DNA of 36,019 nucleotides from Methanosarcinales archaeon (GTDB taxonomy: Archaea; Halobacteriota; Methanosarcinia; Methanosarcinales; Methanocomedenaceae): positions 1 through 36,019 of the forward strand of contig JAUWRA010000005.1 in NCBI GenBank assembly GCA_030610815.1. Direction: 5' to 3'. Under the pieces are notes generated by a model that was not told the origin of the DNA, ran no database searches, and worked only from the letters and a program-made list of their open reading frames with translations. Both the position numbers and the translations under genes were made by a program. Positions 4,056-15,948 of this stretch are shown here, piece by piece (positions within the stretch are counted from its first letter, which is position 1; the number at the start of each line of letters is the position of its first letter).

Positions 4056-4688
4056 ATGGGGATGGGTTTCCTGGAAAAACTTGAAGACATTAATCTTCCC
4101 ATAGTCCTGCTCCTGGCCCAACTGGTTACCTATCCTTTTGCCATAGGCATCAGGAACCATGAGGACCCGGTTGGCAATGTTATCAGTGCCCTACTCATCA
4201 TAATTCCTGTATTTGCCATGCTGGGCCTTGTCCTGAGGCTATTTTTTAAAAGGATACATACGGGAAAAAATATGGTGATATTTCTTGACCACAGGGGAGT
4301 TAAGCTTAAAGAGATTCCAGGTCTTATCGGCATCATGATACCCATGTCGTTCGTAATGCTCATCGTGCTGCTTTACGGCATTATCCTCTTCATCTATTTC
4401 TTCTTTATTACCATACCTATGTACCTCATTTTCAGGTTAGGTAAGAAAAAGGGCATGAGGTATCTGCTGAAATGGCTGTTCAGACTGGAGGCAAAGGTAT
4501 GCATAAGGCTTAGGCAGTACGAACGGCTGGGATATGTGCTGCCATTTGTTTTCGGCACACTGTTCTCGCTGGTACTGACCCAGGGACATATAGCGCTGGG
4601 ATTGCTGTACATGCTGATACTGATGCAGTTCTCATTTGTGGTGGCATTGTATAATGTGATCGGGCAGCAGGAAGTGATTGTCGGGTAA
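4056..4688 (+). CDS. Multi-pass membrane protein of unknown function
   Basis: 210 aa with several hydrophobic segments; 10 nt after the cupin gene. Confidence 0.65.
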   Translation: MGMGFLEKLEDINLPIVLLLAQLVTYPFAIGIRNHEDPVGNVISALLIIIPVFAMLGLVLRLFFKRIHTGKNMVIFLDHRGVKLKEIPGLIGIMIPMSFVMLIVLLYGIILFIYFFFITIPMYLIFRLGKKKGMRYLLKWLFRLEAKVCIRLRQYERLGYVLPFVFGTLFSLVLTQGHIALGLLYMLILMQFSFVVALYNVIGQQEVIVG

Positions 4689-4838
4689 ATGGTTTTATCA
4701 GTGTCTTGCCTGATAGATTACTTTTATAAAATTTTTATAAATTTATAACAAATAATCAAATCAATCAAAAGACATAAGTATTTTAAAATTCATGATTATT
4801 ATGCATATCAAAGAAGTTATTTTTAGGAGAGTTGACAA

Positions 4839-5447
4839 ATGGTTTCAGTTGGACAAGAATTATTAAACGTTCCCTTTGGTGAAATGATAAGAGAAATGGC
4901 CCTCGCTATTGCAGAGGGACAGATGGCCCTTGATATGAACTCAGTAAAAGTCGCACAGGCACTCGCAGACACGGAACTGGAAGTAGGAAGCGTGGTGATG
5001 TACATTGAAGAAACTGTTGATGCAGACGGCAACGTCACAGCAACTGATGTGGTTACTAATGATGCGCCCATGTCACTGCTCACCTATGGTCTTGAACCCA
5101 GGTTCTATGAATTTACTGAATCTATCATTGAGGTAAAGATGGCTATCTCAATGAAAAGGGAAATGTCGACTGAGAAAAAATACGGAAGGGAATTCAATTT
5201 AACGAACAAAAGTAAAGTAAGCGGCAGTATTAGTACTGGTGGTTTGACCAGTTTTCTGTTCGGTAAAGCATCTACAAAATTTGAAAATACCACAACAGTG
5301 GCATATTCATCAACCTACGATGCAAAATACAGTTCCAAGTATTCATTCAAAGAATCGGGCACAAGCCTGCTGCGTACCACATTAAAGCCTGTACCCCCCC
5401 CATCCAGAGTAGTACCAACAATAAAAGTTATAGAAGCATCCACATAA
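4839..5447 (+). CDS. DUF2589-like protein, paralogue 1
   Basis: N-terminal ELLNVPFGEMIREMALAIAEGQMALDMNSV, central YEFTESIIEVKMAISMK, C-terminal LKPVPPPSRVVP; good SD (aggag) upstream. Confidence 0.7.
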   Translation: MVSVGQELLNVPFGEMIREMALAIAEGQMALDMNSVKVAQALADTELEVGSVVMYIEETVDADGNVTATDVVTNDAPMSLLTYGLEPRFYEFTESIIEVKMAISMKREMSTEKKYGREFNLTNKSKVSGSISTGGLTSFLFGKASTKFENTTTVAYSSTYDAKYSSKYSFKESGTSLLRTTLKPVPPPSRVVPTIKVIEAST

Positions 5448-5488
5448 CGGTTATCTCCTCCCCATTTATTTTTTTTGGAGATACAATC

Positions 5489-5896
5489 ATGGCCAACAGT
5501 AATACTAAGATAATCTCGGAAGTATTGGTAAATCCTTTATCCAGGATAATCACAGAAGTCGGAAAATCCATTTCCGAAACACAACAGGCAATGGATAGAA
5601 ATTCCATTGACACCCAGCTTGCTATTGATAACGATGAGATTTTGAGCCAATATGATATCCAGGCTACATGGCATCATATTCCAGAGGTAGAACTTGAACT
5701 CAAAATGGCACTCACAATGAAATGCAAAGAAGAAAAAGATTCGAAAGGAGTGATTCGAGGTTATCGGCACATATTACATGCCGCACCATTGAATGCATCA
5801 TATAAAAACTACCATGAATATGATGTGGAAGGGGCAAGTACCGTTAAAGCCAAGTTTGTCTCAATCCCGCCTTCCAGCCAAATTGTGAGTGAATAG
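5489..5896 (+). CDS. DUF2589-like protein, paralogue 2 (shorter)
   Basis: Same three blocks as the upstream gene: VLVNPLSRIITEVGKSISETQQAMDRNSI, HHIPEVELELKMALTMK, AKFVSIPPSSQIV; SD tttggaga. Confidence 0.68.
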   Translation: MANSNTKIISEVLVNPLSRIITEVGKSISETQQAMDRNSIDTQLAIDNDEILSQYDIQATWHHIPEVELELKMALTMKCKEEKDSKGVIRGYRHILHAAPLNASYKNYHEYDVEGASTVKAKFVSIPPSSQIVSE

Positions 5897-7944: not shown

Positions 7945-9222
7945 ATGACCACTGATAATCTCACGATCACAGAAAAGATCTTTTCAAAAGCTTCAGGCAG
8001 GCCGGTCAGGGCCGGCGAGTTTGTTATGGCAGACATTGACTGCGCTATGACCCACGATATCACCGGACCCCTGGCTGTGCAGGGTTTTAAGGAGATCATG
8101 AAGGACAAAGCCGAGGCAAAGGTCTGGGATCCGGACAAGATCGTGATCCTGTTCGACCACCAGGTACCTGCCGACTCGCTGAATGCGGCAGAGAACCACA
8201 TAATGCTGAGAAAATTCGCAGCCGGGCAGGGCATCACTAACTATGATGTCTTTGAGGGTGTGTGCCATCAGGTAGTACCGGAAAAGGGCTGGGCCAGACC
8301 AGGCGACCTTGTGGTGGGCAGTGACAGCCATACCTGTGCCTACGGCTCGCTGGGAGCTTTTTCAACAGGCATCGGCAGTACGGACATGGCTGCGGTTTTC
8401 GCTACAGGCAAGCTGTGGTTCAAGGTGCCGCAGACCATCAGGTTCGAGGTGAACGGACGCCTGCCTGATAAGGTGTACAGCAAGGATATTATCCTGCACC
8501 TGATAGGGGATGTGGGTGCCGATGGTGCTATGTATATGGCGGCAGAGTATGGCGGCGAGTCTATAAGAAGCCTGGATATCAGCCAGCGCATGACCATAAG
8601 CAACATGGCGATCGAGATGGGCGGCAAGGCTGGCATCATTGAGCCTGACGCTACTACTGAAGATTACCTGAAAGAACGCATTCCCGGCTTCACTCTTGAC
8701 CCTGTCTGGAAGAGCGATGAGGGGTGCGAGTATGCCGATTTCCGCGAATATGACATCTCAGACCTGTCCCCGCAGGTGGCATGTCCCCATAATGTGGACA
8801 ATGTGAAATCTGTGGAGGAAGTGGAGGGCACCCATATCGACCAGATACTTGTGGGTTCCTGTACTAATGGCAGGTTCGAGGATATCAAGATAGTGGCAGA
8901 CATCATGGGTGATGAGCCTGTGGCAAAAGGCCTGAGGCTGCTGGTCATCCCGGCGTCGCGTACTGAGTATATGAAGGTGCTGCGCGCAGGATTTGTGGAG
9001 CAGTTCATGGAGGCTGGTGCAATTGTTGAGAGTCCCTGCTGTGGACCCTGTATGGGCGGCAGTTTCGGGCTGCTGGGTGATGGCGAGGTAGGGCTTGCCA
9101 CGTCCAACCGCAACTTCCAGGGCAGGCAGGGCAGTGCGAAGGCGTTTGTGTATCTTTCTTCTCCGGCCACTGCGGCGGCATCTGCACTTACGGGTGAGAT
9201 AACTGATCCTAGGAAGGGTTAA
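7945..9222 (+). CDS. leuC: 3-isopropylmalate dehydratase / homoaconitase large subunit (aconitase family)
   Basis: [71 protein letters not shown]. Confidence 0.9.
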
Positions 9223-9493
9223 ACGGGTGTTGGTGTTTTCGTAGTTAGGGGGGAAATTATGAAAATTTGTATTGACGGATGAGATGGAAAAACGGGTGGG
9301 AGGTATTGGATACAGGGTTGCGGTAGTTAAGTCTGGGGCATGGTGACTGCGGGATGGATATACTGTGCATCAAATTAAATACTAGAATTAATATATTATA
9401 TATGTTCAAATAACTGGGCACATTTCTATTAAATGATTTGAAATATAAAGATTAAGTAGTATTAAATAACTTCAGAGACCTACATTTTATACT

Positions 9494-10156
9494 TTGGTGG
9501 TAATTTTGCAAATAGAATCTTACGAACCGTATCACATCGGTAATAAGTTAAATCCAGCTACAAATTTTGATAGCTTAAAAAAGAAGTTAAAAGAAAAACT
9601 TCAAACTGCAGAATATAAAATTACTGAAGAAACTCTTTCTGGACAGCAAGTAATTTTTGATAAGCCAATTGAGGTATTGGGTTTAAAAAATGATGTAAGA
9701 ATAGAATTAAATCATTTAGCACAAGCTCTTAATGTAATAGGTACAAATCCAGAGAATGTATCATCAATTTATATGGAAATTAATTCTTTTTTACCTGAAA
9801 TTGGATATGAAATCGAAAATTTATCTTTATTTTTTGAAATTGTTACCTCTATCATAGTAAAATCTGATGGAAAATCCCCAAAAGAAATTCTCAATGATTC
9901 CATAAAATTAAATATGGGTTCTTTTTTTATAAATGATATTCAAAATACAAATATAATTGGAATTCGAATTGGCGGTGAAAATACCGAGAATGATAATAAT
10001 TTTACTTTGTCAATCGAACCAAGTACAACAAGTCCAAATAGTAGATTTATGTTGAATTTACGGTATCGTTCAAAAGATAAAGAAAATATTCAAATATTTC
10101 ACCAAGAATTGGATGAAAAAATTATGCAATTGCTTACTCAATTGGAGTGGAAATGA
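9494..10156 (+). CDS. Hypothetical protein (island module 1, gene A)
   Basis: 220 aa AT-rich ORF; overlaps the next ORF by 10 nt. Confidence 0.65.
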   Translation: MVVILQIESYEPYHIGNKLNPATNFDSLKKKLKEKLQTAEYKITEETLSGQQVIFDKPIEVLGLKNDVRIELNHLAQALNVIGTNPENVSSIYMEINSFLPEIGYEIENLSLFFEIVTSIIVKSDGKSPKEILNDSIKLNMGSFFINDIQNTNIIGIRIGGENTENDNNFTLSIEPSTTSPNSRFMLNLRYRSKDKENIQIFHQELDEKIMQLLTQLEWK

Positions 10157-10770
10157 TATCCATAATTGATAGTACATCAATTCCATTATGTAATGAGGAA
10201 TATATAGATTCAACTACTACTCCAAATAACGAAATTTGTGAAAATTTTAAGTACCAGATGGCAGGTTATTATTTCAAACCTCCAGTATCTTCACTACAAG
10301 TGAGGGATGAACTGACAAATTCATGGTTAGATGATTCTTACTTGAATTCCATTTTAACAATTTTGGAAACTACAGCTTTAGTATCCGAGATTGCTTCAAT
10401 TCAATCTGAAACATCTAGGAGATTATCATTGGAAAAAATCACGGAAGTTAGTTCTGAAATAAGAGAACTTTCAGAAAAAGATGTACATTTCAATAAAATT
10501 TTGGCAAATACTTTAACCGAAGTAGATTTTATATTGGATAAAGATGGGATAAATTATCGAATTAGAGTGGAAATAGAAGAAGATATTGAAATTCCTGAAT
10601 GGAAAGAATTTTTGATTTTAATTCAAATTTCAATTACGAATCACAAAGAACTTGTCCAATTATGGAGAAAAATATCAGAAAATGTTAGGAATAAAATCGA
10701 ATCAATTAAATCTGAAAATGAAATTCTAAGGGAATATAAAAATTTTACAATAATTTTAGAAGAAATTTAA
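10147..10770 (+). CDS. Hypothetical protein (island module 1, gene B)
   Basis: 207 aa AT-rich ORF in an overlapping operon arrangement. Confidence 0.65.
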   Translation: MEMISIIDSTSIPLCNEEYIDSTTTPNNEICENFKYQMAGYYFKPPVSSLQVRDELTNSWLDDSYLNSILTILETTALVSEIASIQSETSRRLSLEKITEVSSEIRELSEKDVHFNKILANTLTEVDFILDKDGINYRIRVEIEEDIEIPEWKEFLILIQISITNHKELVQLWRKISENVRNKIESIKSENEILREYKNFTIILEEI

Positions 10771-10782
10771 TGATTAAATATT

Positions 10783-11139
10783 ATGACCTTCGATCCACTA
10801 CATTTTTTAAATTTAGCAACTAGCTTAAGCGTCGATGAAAAATATGACATTGAAGCAAGATGTAGAACATCTATTAGTAGAGCATATTATGCAGCTCATT
10901 TGATAAGCAGAAATAAATTGGAATCGAAAAGTAGTCGTTTTTCAAAAGACGGAAAAGCTCATGAAGAAGTAATAGAGCAAATGAAGAAAAAAAATCCACA
11001 TATAGGTGATATGCTTTATCAATTAAGAAGAAAAAGAAATGATGCTGATTATAAGTTAAATATAAATTTTTCACCATTTACAACAAATACTTACATTTCT
11101 TATGCCGAAACAATAATAGAAGAAGTAATGGAATTATAA
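10783..11139 (+). CDS. HEPN-domain-like protein (island module 1, gene C)
   Basis: 118 aa, SRAYYAAHLISRNKL followed by LRRKRNDADYKLN, characteristic of small HEPN proteins. Confidence 0.75.
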   Translation: MTFDPLHFLNLATSLSVDEKYDIEARCRTSISRAYYAAHLISRNKLESKSSRFSKDGKAHEEVIEQMKKKNPHIGDMLYQLRRKRNDADYKLNINFSPFTTNTYISYAETIIEEVMEL

Positions 11140-11280: not shown

Positions 11281-11496
11281 GTGTCACTTGAGTTTATAAA
11301 GCAGATTTTGATAAATCCCGAGATAATAAGAAAAGAACTGCATGATACTGAATATTTTCCAACAAGATACCTATGCGAATCGGAATTAAATGAGCATATC
11401 TATCCATGTATTTTAGGTATCGAAAAGTCAGATCAAGGTCTTATTATTGTGATAACTTTGCTCAATCGAAAGAAAAAACGTACATTACGGAAGTGA
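11281..11496 (+). CDS. Small hypothetical protein, possible toxin/antitoxin-type component
   Basis: 71 aa; immediately followed by another small ORF; its 5' end is repeated at 13905. Confidence 0.5.
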   Translation: MSLEFIKQILINPEIIRKELHDTEYFPTRYLCESELNEHIYPCILGIEKSDQGLIIVITLLNRKKKRTLRK

Positions 11497-11500
11497 AAAT

Positions 11501-11677
11501 ATGAAAAAGAATGACGAGTTTGAGGAAGTATACGAAGATGTTGTAATAGAGAACTATGGCATTCCTATAGTTTTTACAGACGTTCTTGTAAGAAAGCACA
11601 AAAGTACGGGAAGAAATATATACTTCAATCATCCGGATTCTATACACAAAATAGAAAAGGGACTGGAATTAGTATAG
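11501..11677 (+). CDS. Small hypothetical protein, partner of the preceding ORF
   Basis: 58 aa MKKNDEFEEVYEDVVIENYGIPIVFTDVLVRKHKSTGRNIYFNHPDSIHKIEKGLELV; 4 nt gap to the upstream ORF; missed by the ORF track. Confidence 0.5.
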   Translation: MKKNDEFEEVYEDVVIENYGIPIVFTDVLVRKHKSTGRNIYFNHPDSIHKIEKGLELV

Positions 11678-11722
11678 AGTTTGAATGAACATCAAATTGC
11701 GCCTAAATTGAAACGTTCAAAA

Positions 11723-11897
11723 CTGCACATACGGTCCACTTGGAGCATTTTCTATAGGCATCGGTAGTACGGACATGGCTGCGGTGTTCGGTACAGGCAG
11801 GGCAGGGCAGTGCCAAGGCTTTTGTGTATCTTTCTTCTCCGGCCACTGCGGCGGCATCTGCACTTACAGGCGAGATTACTGACCCGCGAAGGGGTTA
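11723..11897 (+). pseudogene. Decayed, internally deleted copy of leuC
   Basis: ctGCACATACGGTCCACTTGGAGC...GGCATCGGTAGTACGGACATGGCTGCGGTG matches 8332-8409; then jumps to cagggcagtgccaaggcttttgtgtatctttcttctccggccactgcggcggcatctgcactta, matching 9122-9222, with a frame change at the junction. Confidence 0.9.
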
Positions 11898-12090
11898 AAC
11901 GGGTGTTGATGGTTTGATTGTGGGATGCTTTCTGAAGTTGTTCAGGAAGCATTATACTTAGGTGGGTTCTATGGTATAGATAGGAAGGAATATGCAAATC
12001 TATATTGACGGACGAGATGGAAAAACGGGTGGCAGGTATTATATACAGGCCTACGGTACTTAAGTCCGGGGTATAGTGACTGCGAAATAG
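11898..12090 (+). repeat. Second copy of the leuC downstream flank
   Basis: attgacggacgagatggaaaaacgggtggcaggtatt...acttaagtccggggtatagtgactgcg versus 9273-9352 attgacggatgagatggaaaaacgggtgggaggtatt...gttaagtctggggcatggtgactgcg. Confidence 0.85.
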
Positions 12091-12165: not shown

Positions 12166-13767
12166 ATGTTTTTTGAATCTCCATTAACTGAAGAATTACA
12201 TAAGTATAAAAGAAAAAAGATTAATTCAGAATTTCCAATTTTGAATACTTCCAATTACGCATATTTATCAATCTGGGAATATTTAAATAATATCCCAAAA
12301 AGATTTTACTCTAAAAATGCATGTGAAGATATTTATGATTTTCTCGAAAGTATTAAAGAAGAAGAACCAAACACTCTTGTTGAAATTCTAAATGATTATG
12401 ACAAAATTTTATCTATATGATTTAGATCACTAAGTGAAATTAATTCATTAAACTTTCATGATATGGTATTACCGTCCAATGAATACGATTTAATGAGCTT
12501 CCTTGATATTTATATTCACCCAAATTACTTAAAACTAATTGAGGGAGTGTATTCAAATTTGATACTTCCTATCAGTGCTAATCAACGGATTAAACGAGGA
12601 GCTGGATTCGAAAGATTTGATGTATTTAACCGAGTCGAAGAGTTGAAAGGTACTTCATATAAATATTTATCAACTCCTTATAGTAACACAATCAGAAATG
12701 CAATTGCTCATGGTAAAGTTGTTTTCAAACATGGGAATATTATTTATGAAGATAAAAAGAAAAAAATCGTTTTGTCATCTAGAAATACCATTAATCTATT
12801 CGATGACATGTTAGACATTTCTAATGGATTATCTCTGGGTTTTTGTTTATTTTATTTTACAAACCTAGAATTTCTTGAAGAATATGGCATTAAAATCCCT
12901 CTTCCTATCATGATAGAAGAACTAAGAGCTGAAACTAACGCCCCAGGATGGAAAATCAGAGGATATCTTGAGTCTGAGATATTTGATAATAGAAGTCAAC
13001 TGATAATTTTCGTGAAAAACTGTTTTCTTGACAGAATAATGCTAAATTACCATGTATTCAGTTCAGCTATCTTTGCTGAAAAATTTACTCCTGGTTACCA
13101 AAGATATTTCTTCTCACTCGATTCAAAATATTCCCTGCCTGGATGGGCAGCATTTGATGGATTTGAATTATCTAAATTAAGAAATCAACATATTAATAAT
13201 ATTCAAGATTATTATAAAACTTTAGAGGATGGAATGATATTTTTCATTCCGAAATATAAATTGCCCAGAATCGTTTTTAAGATGGCAACATTTATCTCTA
13301 TTATTAGGATTAATTTACGAGTTACTTGGCGTGAGTTTAAAGAAAACTACTATAAATTATTCATAAAACCAAGAGAGATGACAATTCATCAAAATAAATT
13401 TCATTCTATCATAAAGGGAAGTATTATTGTGAAGCCAAATTCAAATATGCCAATTGATGAGTTGATTCGAAATTATAGTGGGTCCATTGTAAGAAAATCG
13501 ATTAAAACAGCCCGAAAAAATGCAAAAATAACTGATATTTCAAAATACTTACCTGTAGGCTACTTAAGAATTAGTATATATACTAAAGATTTCCGAGTAA
13601 GAAAATTAAAAAACGCTGGTTTAATTCCTGAATTATTATGCACAATTGAATTTAAAAGATTAGAAAGGATTCGAACAATTGATATCATTGGAGGAAGACC
13701 TGAAATAATCAAAAAAATCAGAATTGTCTGGAATGAAAAAGCTAAAATTATTGAGCATTCAGGATAG
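12166..13767 (+). pseudogene. Single ~533-codon reading frame split by one in-frame TGA (12418-12420); HEPN-like motif RNAIAHG
   Basis: ORFs 12166-12420 and 12463-13767 share a frame, and the 42 nt between them are open (FRSLSEINSLNFHD-M). Motif YSNTIRNAIAHGKV. Confidence 0.6.
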
Positions 13768-13904
13768 TCAACTTTTTATAAACATCTTTATAATTAAAAT
13801 CTACGCCTCAATTTTATAAGAAATAAAAAATAGATGGTAATATGATTCCATGAACATCAACTGTATGCCCGGGATTTGAGCGTTAGCGAAATCTAGGGTA
13901 CGTG

Positions 13905-13959
13905 ACTTGAGTTTATAAAGCAGATTTTGATAAATCCAAAAATAAAAAGAAAAGAACTG
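13905..13959 (+). repeat. Truncated copy of the 5' end of the small gene at 11281
   Basis: acttgagtttataaagcagattttgataaatcc identical at 11286-11318 and 13905-13937; then ..agaaaagaactg also shared. Confidence 0.88.
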
Positions 13960-14436: not shown

Positions 14437-15948
14437 CTACCTCCTGGCGACCAGTTTACTGATATCATCACTTGTGATAATACCACTTACCCTGCTGTGC
14501 TTATCCACCACAGGCAAAGCACTGATGTTATGCTGCTCCAACCTTCGTGCCACTATATCGATGGGTTCAGAGGCATCAGCAGTGACCACAGTCCTGGTCA
14601 TGATATCATCAAGTTTGTCCCGCTTGTTCTTTGCCACAGCCTTGGCAATATCCCATGCCGTGATAATTCCGACCAGCCGGTCCTCATCCGACACCACAGG
14701 CAGGTGGTTGAAGTTCCCTTCCATGATCACCTTTGCAGCATTCTCCACAGTCAGCCCCTGCTGAATAGTGATCACCCGCTTTGCCATAACATCAGCTACT
14801 GTGGGCTGCTCACCTATCTGTTTCATGGGCTTGAACACCACGCCAGTGTTGGGCAAACGCTCCACCGGAAGCGTCGGATAGAACGTCCCCTTTTGTATCC
14901 AGTCCTTCAATTCCCCTGCAATGGCCCTGGCATCATGAAAACTGGACATGGGTGACGTTGTAATTTCCCTGCCGTTAATGTCTATCATGCCTGACTTCAA
15001 TTCCTCATAGGTAACCTGGCGCAGTATAGGTCTGCTCCTGCGTGCCACGCCGTAGTCCAGCACGTTAGTGGTGATATCAGCATCGGTCACTGCAGTGGCC
15101 TTTGCAATATCAGCGTTTAAGATCGGTATGGGTATGCCGATACCTACATACAGGGAAGTGCCATATCCGTGGAAGGTGGCACCCCTCAAGTATTTTTTAT
15201 CCATCTGCTTCAGGTCGCCCTGTACCATCATTGTCGCAAAATTATTGTCCGGGTCGTGCTGGGTACCTTGCCCGGTCACATACCCCTGACCTCCGCACAG
15301 GAAAATGCGGCTCCCCACACCTATGGTCTGGTAAGTGGGGTCATTGTACATTGGCGAGAGTACCCCTGCACCCGAATATGTAACATTGCCGCAGTCGGGC
15401 AGTAGTGTTCCCATATAAGTATACAGGGTACGGTCTGTGCAGTTTGTAGCAACATTGTACTTCTGGTAACCGTTTCTGGGATTGAACATTGTTGCCTGGT
15501 TCAAGTCGTCTATTGTCACAGTAGTATCCAGCACCTTGCGGGGATAGCAGTCGGTGCCGTAGGCTGTGGCATGGATATCTATGGACTTACCTGCCACAAG
15601 GTCCTCTATTACATGGGCTCCTCCGTACTCCATGCCCCTGCTCTCACTAAGCTGGGTTGCACCTATATAGGCATCGATGGCAGCCAGACCGGCATAGGCC
15701 TCAACATCATTGAGCCATACCTTTTGCATCTTGATGGGAGGGTCTGAATGCCCGAAATTGAGAAAGGCACCGGATGAGCACATGGCCCCGAAAGTACCTG
15801 TAGTAACTATATCTATTTCTTTTGCAGCGCCAACTGGCCCCAGTTCTGCCACGATGTCCGGCATCTCTTCTGCCGTAACTACATGGACGCTGCCGTCAGC
15901 GATCTTAGCATTGATGTCCTGTATTGTTTTATCAGTCACTGTAATCAC
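14437..15948 (-). CDS. DUF39 / homocysteine biosynthesis protein with C-terminal CBS pair
   Basis: VTTGTFGAMCSSGAFLNFGHSDPPIKM, CGGQGYVTGQGTQHDP, two CBS repeats (MAKRVITIQQGLTVENAAKVI, MTRTVVTADASEPIDIVARRL). Confidence 0.88.
   Translation of the reverse strand: MITVTDKTIQDINAKIADGSVHVVTAEEMPDIVAELGPVGAAKEIDIVTTGTFGAMCSSGAFLNFGHSDPPIKMQKVWLNDVEAYAGLAAIDAYIGATQLSESRGMEYGGAHVIEDLVAGKSIDIHATAYGTDCYPRKVLDTTVTIDDLNQATMFNPRNGYQKYNVATNCTDRTLYTYMGTLLPDCGNVTYSGAGVLSPMYNDPTYQTIGVGSRIFLCGGQGYVTGQGTQHDPDNNFATMMVQGDLKQMDKKYLRGATFHGYGTSLYVGIGIPIPILNADIAKATAVTDADITTNVLDYGVARRSRPILRQVTYEELKSGMIDINGREITTSPMSSFHDARAIAGELKDWIQKGTFYPTLPVERLPNTGVVFKPMKQIGEQPTVADVMAKRVITIQQGLTVENAAKVIMEGNFNHLPVVSDEDRLVGIITAWDIAKAVAKNKRDKLDDIMTRTVVTADASEPIDIVARRLEQHNISALPVVDKHSRVSGIITSDDISKLVARR

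Follow-up and report, generated by a model that had tools for sequence, protein, structure and literature searches.

A conserved three-gene archaeal cassette ending in a HEPN gene of AF0298 type, a candidate modular toxin-antitoxin system

Related systems and the A-B-C cassette

Few accessory genes are commoner in archaea than those for HEPN proteins, and the HEPN genes that have been explained are mostly paired with MNT antitoxins. Archaeal antiviral systems in general are poorly known. TAC chaperones occur in combination with several toxin types, and TIGR04255 is a sporadically distributed protein family of unknown function. The type VII MNT-HEPN toxin-antitoxin systems (PADLOC PDC-M05), which are enriched in archaea (PMC12988326), consist of small co-oriented genes with the HEPN gene in the last position. 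In the HEPN-T or UPF0332 group (AF0298, PDB 2hsb, PF05168) the partner of the HEPN protein is a minimal nucleotidyltransferase. Proteins of the AF0298 family have the arginine of the Rx4-6H motif, lack its histidine and carry a second conserved histidine upstream, which was proposed in a 2013 survey of HEPN proteins to form an alternative active site (PMC3710099). According to the same survey, the AF0298 group clusters with restriction operons, and HEPN domains devoid of the motif act elsewhere as binding domains (PMC3710099). In the Panacea systems (DUF4065) one conserved partner is joined to unrelated toxins (PMC8832971).

The window analysed here is an entire contig of 36,019 nucleotides (G000:C116) from the 2.37-Mb draft genome of an archaeon of the methane cycle. 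It contains three genes on the forward strand, designated A (positions 9494-10156; 220 aa, TTG start), B (10153-10770; proposed antitoxin or adaptor) and C (10783-11139; 118 aa, proposed RNase effector). Open reading frames of 220, 207 and 118 aa had been listed in the initial annotation, and all three were found at the positions given there. The 10-nt overlap between A and B claimed at the same time is correct if B starts at GTG 10147 (207 aa). In our view the likelier start is ATG 10153, which has a GGAG upstream; from this codon B is 205 aa long and the overlap shrinks to 4 nt (ATGA).

In its small co-oriented genes and terminal HEPN gene the cassette resembles the type VII systems. It differs from them in having three genes, and it can be ruled out as a member of the MNT-HEPN class because both the nucleotidyltransferase gene and the RX4HXY motif are missing: neither A nor B matched a minimal nucleotidyltransferase, and no such reading frame was recognised nearby. 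The HEPN protein itself resembles the HEPN-T group, and shares with AF0298 the profile match, the retained arginine, the missing Rx4-6H histidine and an upstream histidine. In contrast to the minimal nucleotidyltransferase of that group, the partners of C are B plus either A, a TIGR04255 protein or a DUF3467-like protein.

The same gene order was found in five further genomes, so that A-B-C is now represented by six loci in two classes of the phylum, which bears out the view that A and B accompany the HEPN gene elsewhere. In three Methanosarcinaceae genomes (L003/L007, L004/L008 and L005/L009) homologues of A with 45-49% identity are followed by homologues of B and C, the identity of B being lower (29-30%); two more loci (L033 and L035), from another class of the same phylum, were added by profile search. 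The dN/dS values across the orthologues of A, B and C ranged from 0.17 to 0.82, showing that the three genes are under purifying selection. These values, together with the recurrence of the orthologues elsewhere in unchanged order, indicate that the reading frames are more than chance. Small co-oriented genes that overlap or nearly adjoin and are kept together across genomes are also a trait of type II-like toxin-antitoxin systems. The distribution is patchy: a single-sequence search detected a relative of A, of any kind, in 5 of 238 genomes of the class. Viral contigs yielded no relatives of A (searched in two ways), of a distant A protein or of C, and plasmid searches with queries from the A family were likewise negative.

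The most economical reading, and one that we consider probable, is that A-B-C is a mobile three-component toxin-antitoxin module, presumably of the abortive-infection kind. In the proposed mechanism B, encoded just before C, would bind and restrain C through its conserved C-terminal domain, and A would be a trigger-sensing or regulatory partner acting on the B-C complex, a place that might also be taken by TIGR04255 or DUF3467-like proteins. Upon infection or stress the restraint would be lifted, C would cut RNA and growth would stop. The roles suggested for A and B are read solely from gene position.

HEPN identity and invariant residues of C

With C of the window as the only query, no match to PF05168 was obtained at E values up to 1. 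Its orthologues, however, scored 31.3 (L033), 25.4 (L035), 29.1 (L003) and 27.5 bits (L004), all above the 22-bit cut-off of this family, and the C profile matched the solved HEPN chains 9xbd (E 2.5e-8), 9xbc (E 1.6e-7) and AF0298 (2hsb; E 0.0015). Judged by sequence profile, C is a HEPN protein of the AF0298 type. This agrees with the initial annotation, which had called C HEPN-like and had quoted two stretches, SRAYYAAHLISRN and LRRKRNDADY, both of which are present in the protein.

Ten residues (E24, R28, R33, A34, Y35, Y36, H60, R85, D89 and Y90) are the same in all 21 archaeal relatives of C. Four of them lie in the SRAYY stretch (residues 32-36, positions 10876-10890), and three are in the segment R-N-D-A-D-Y (residues 85-90, positions 11035-11052), which stands in place of the canonical Rx4H. 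The Rx4-6H motif is absent from C and from all its relatives. At this place the sequence reads R85-x3-D89-Y90, so that the usual histidine is replaced by a tyrosine. H60 (positions 10960-10962) fits the description of a second conserved histidine N-terminal to the motif, and is thus a candidate for the alternative catalytic histidine (PMC3710099). The PDB entries 9xbd and 9xbc differ by a Y to F exchange at the position that corresponds to Y90, and presumably the depositors tested this residue; a literature search found no paper on 9xbd.

If C is a HEPN ribonuclease, its active site may be formed from R28, R33, H60, R85, D89 and Y90. Since the canonical histidine is missing, in C as in all relatives, C could also be a catalytically dead binding protein, comparable to the motif-less HEPN domains that have a binding function elsewhere (PMC3710099). 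A, B and C would then make up a regulatory complex for stress or expression control, in which the task of C would be to bind RNA or a ligand, and no toxin would be present. We regard this as unlikely: invariance of the six putative active site residues in 21 of 21 proteins would be unusual for a mere scaffold, and these first genes are found elsewhere in front of genuine toxin families (PemK and GNAT, see below). A ribonuclease effector as the product of gene C is the reading that we prefer.

Families of A and B, alternative first genes and alternative effectors

Searches of Pfam, NCBIfam and PADLOC assigned neither A nor B to a family above cut-off. A belongs to an unclassified family of proteins of about 220 aa, of which 18 members were aligned; they constitute a single family, and leave-one-out profiles regained each divergent member with E values between 1e-44 and 5e-8. 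The AlphaFold models, built from four sequences, were weak (pLDDT 56 for A and 53 for B), and Foldseek searches with them gave no match below E 1e-3. In the model of B the first 93 residues are of low confidence, and the N-terminal half is probably disordered; the C-terminal half is predicted to have an alpha-beta-beta-alpha-beta order, and the conserved C-terminal domain comprises approximately residues 98-206. A TBP-like fold of A, hinted at by the order of strands, was rejected (profiles 0.1% and 3.6%, no structural match), as was an internal duplication of A, the two halves of which failed to align by profile.

At other loci the A family was found in front of different third genes. These include a PemK/MazF gene (L006, 36.8 bits, truncated reading frame), a GNAT gene (L015, 34.8 bits) and, with weak scores of 15 bits that are below cut-off, HicA-like genes (L011 and L013). 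We read the proteins encoded at L014, L030, L034 and L037 as winged-helix-like, and could not name those at L029 and L031; the third genes of L014, L029, L031 and L034 are not recognisable as toxins. In L006 (1309-2555; L018) the A-family gene is followed by a 60-aa reading frame and then by the PemK/MazF reading frame, which ends early (88 aa) and is possibly frameshifted.

Conversely, a search with the B profile revealed B-HEPN pairs without A in further genomes. In archaea some of these pairs are preceded by a DUF3467-like gene (L109, 24.5 bits compared to a cut-off of 25; L111 and L112 weaker) and in one case, L107, by a gene for an unnamed 138-aa protein. On cyanobacterial plasmids a B-like gene is accompanied by a HEPN gene, with no obvious first gene, and the cyanobacterial B proteins compare with archaeal B at z 6-7. 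In the Thermus plasmid pTB1 a TIGR04255 gene is followed by a B-like gene and a HEPN reading frame that is matched by the C profile with E 2.6e-17. This reading frame (L134:2501-2866, Thermus brockianus) is absent from the gene table of the plasmid and lies about 1.6 kb from cas6.

TIGR04255 was detected in 57 of 394 archaeal genomes of the phylum, and the genes downstream of it were read at 26 archaeal loci. The layout TIGR04255, B, HEPN, identical to that of A-B-C except for the first gene, was present at nine of them (C profile against C profile, 99.4%). At one locus TIGR04255 precedes, like the A family, a PemK/MazF gene (38.4 bits), and at four loci it precedes a gene for a 178-197-aa protein of the SQSCD family. 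Members of the latter family occupy the effector position at L150:2672-3208, L160:2705-3244, and L154 and L161:2579-3172; they share the conserved C-terminus YREHLSQAFARFFMRVGLP and have no Pfam match above cut-off. The B proteins of the TIGR04255 loci are strongly similar to those of Thermus (z 24.7) and cyanobacteria (z 14.6), and moderately so to archaeal B of the A/DUF3467 type (z 6.1, with controls reaching 4.3). Because profile comparison of the two archaeal B groups gave a weak match (6.8%), the two are linked by their position, by the clearly homologous C genes and by the pairwise z values. None of the 18 A members is recognised by the NCBIfam TIGR04255 model and profile comparisons were negative; single pairs, with z up to 6.6 among 486, are suggestive of A as a possible remote TIGR04255 relative. 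In the literature searched, from which most subscription journals are absent, neither the name TIGR04255 nor a joint mention of DUF3467 and HEPN turned up.

These loci show that the first gene is exchangeable and that, for both A and TIGR04255, the toxin is exchangeable as well. A-B-C is one form among several, and HEPN genes have entered a second partnership, without MNT, that was assembled repeatedly. As far as can be told from sequence comparison, the conserved order with a swapped first gene or toxin suggests a modular system, toxin-antitoxin or antiviral in nature, that has not been described before. More tentatively, with chances that we put slightly short of even, the first protein (A, TIGR04255 or DUF3467-like) may be the general sensor or control unit of an undescribed combinatorial three-gene class, present in archaea and on bacterial plasmids, in which a middle adaptor would join the control unit to one of several effectors that can replace each other (HEPN, MazF/PemK, GNAT, HicA-like and the SQSCD protein of about 178 aa). 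This proposal offers a testable role for two families without known function, TIGR04255 and the DUF3467-like proteins, and, if these swaps of first gene and effector are real, archaea would have a new combinatorial toxin network.

The swapping of partners resembles that of the Panacea and TAC systems; A differs in having no DUF4065 or SecB match, and A-B-C possesses in addition a toxin-specific middle gene, B. A could be imagined as a chaperone-like partner that B needs to fold and to restrain C, loss of A freeing the toxin. Such an addiction mechanism would suit the invariable first position of A and its better conservation relative to B (see above), the probably disordered N-terminal half of B and the combination of A with several toxin types, as with TAC chaperones. 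However, none of the 18 A members matched SecB, a common N-terminal segment, as expected for addiction, was not significant among the B proteins of different toxin types, and the cyanobacterial B-HEPN pairs do without an obvious first gene. We consider this mechanism improbable and retain A as a putative sensing or regulatory partner of the B-C complex.

Genomic setting of the cassette

The initial annotation had proposed to look for such loci near defence genes, and three of the six A-B-C loci indeed have a restriction system no more than about 2.1 kb away, a raw count uncorrected for genome background. At L007 the cassette lies behind HsdRMS, 0.4 kb from A; at L022 McrBC is about 2.1 kb from C; and at L099 a DNA methyltransferase gene and a 250-aa reading frame end about 0.1 kb from C. 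This proximity to type I, McrBC and methylase genes could mean that A, B and C are accessory subunits of the neighbouring systems, through which restriction of DNA would be linked to the cutting of RNA, but the restriction types are unrelated to each other and none is in view at the window copy, L035 or L005, which makes this idea very unlikely.

In the window the cassette lies in a low-GC stretch (28-36% over 9-14 kb, as opposed to about 40-55% in both flanks) bounded by leuC (7945-9222) and a gene at 14437-15948. The left edge of the cargo site is at 9211-9351, which comprises the 3' end of leuC and downstream sequence common to relatives. This segment recurs at 11944-12084 (74%), and 11283-11340 recurs at 13902-13959 (91%). 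To the right of C there is a remnant of another accessory gene pair (11288-11673, forward strand), which has 96% identity with cargo that the congeneric genome G011 carries at this site. It is followed by decayed leuC fragments (11712-11895) and by the downstream flank of leuC in its second copy, which together occupy 11712-12084. Low GC content and a decayed-duplication island had both been asserted before, and both are evident from these data.

No such cargo is present behind leuC in G016 and G022. In G011 leuC is followed by different cargo and by leuC remnants, and in the congeneric G012 by four genes. The site behind leuC is thus a variable cargo hotspot. The accessory origin postulated for the cassette is supported by its patchy distribution and by the empty or otherwise loaded site in relatives.

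At the leuC site of G012 (L082, reverse strand, about 4137-5729) the last cargo gene encodes a 174-aa SQSCD protein, which by eye is related to those of L150, L154, L160 and L161. A second cargo gene of the window (12463-13767) lies beyond the leuC remnants and the duplicated leuC flank, which stand between it and A-B-C. It is a 434-aa reading frame without a Pfam match and includes a stretch that looks like a canonical R-x4-H (IRNAIAHGK); an 84-aa reading frame is located upstream of this gene at 12166-12420.
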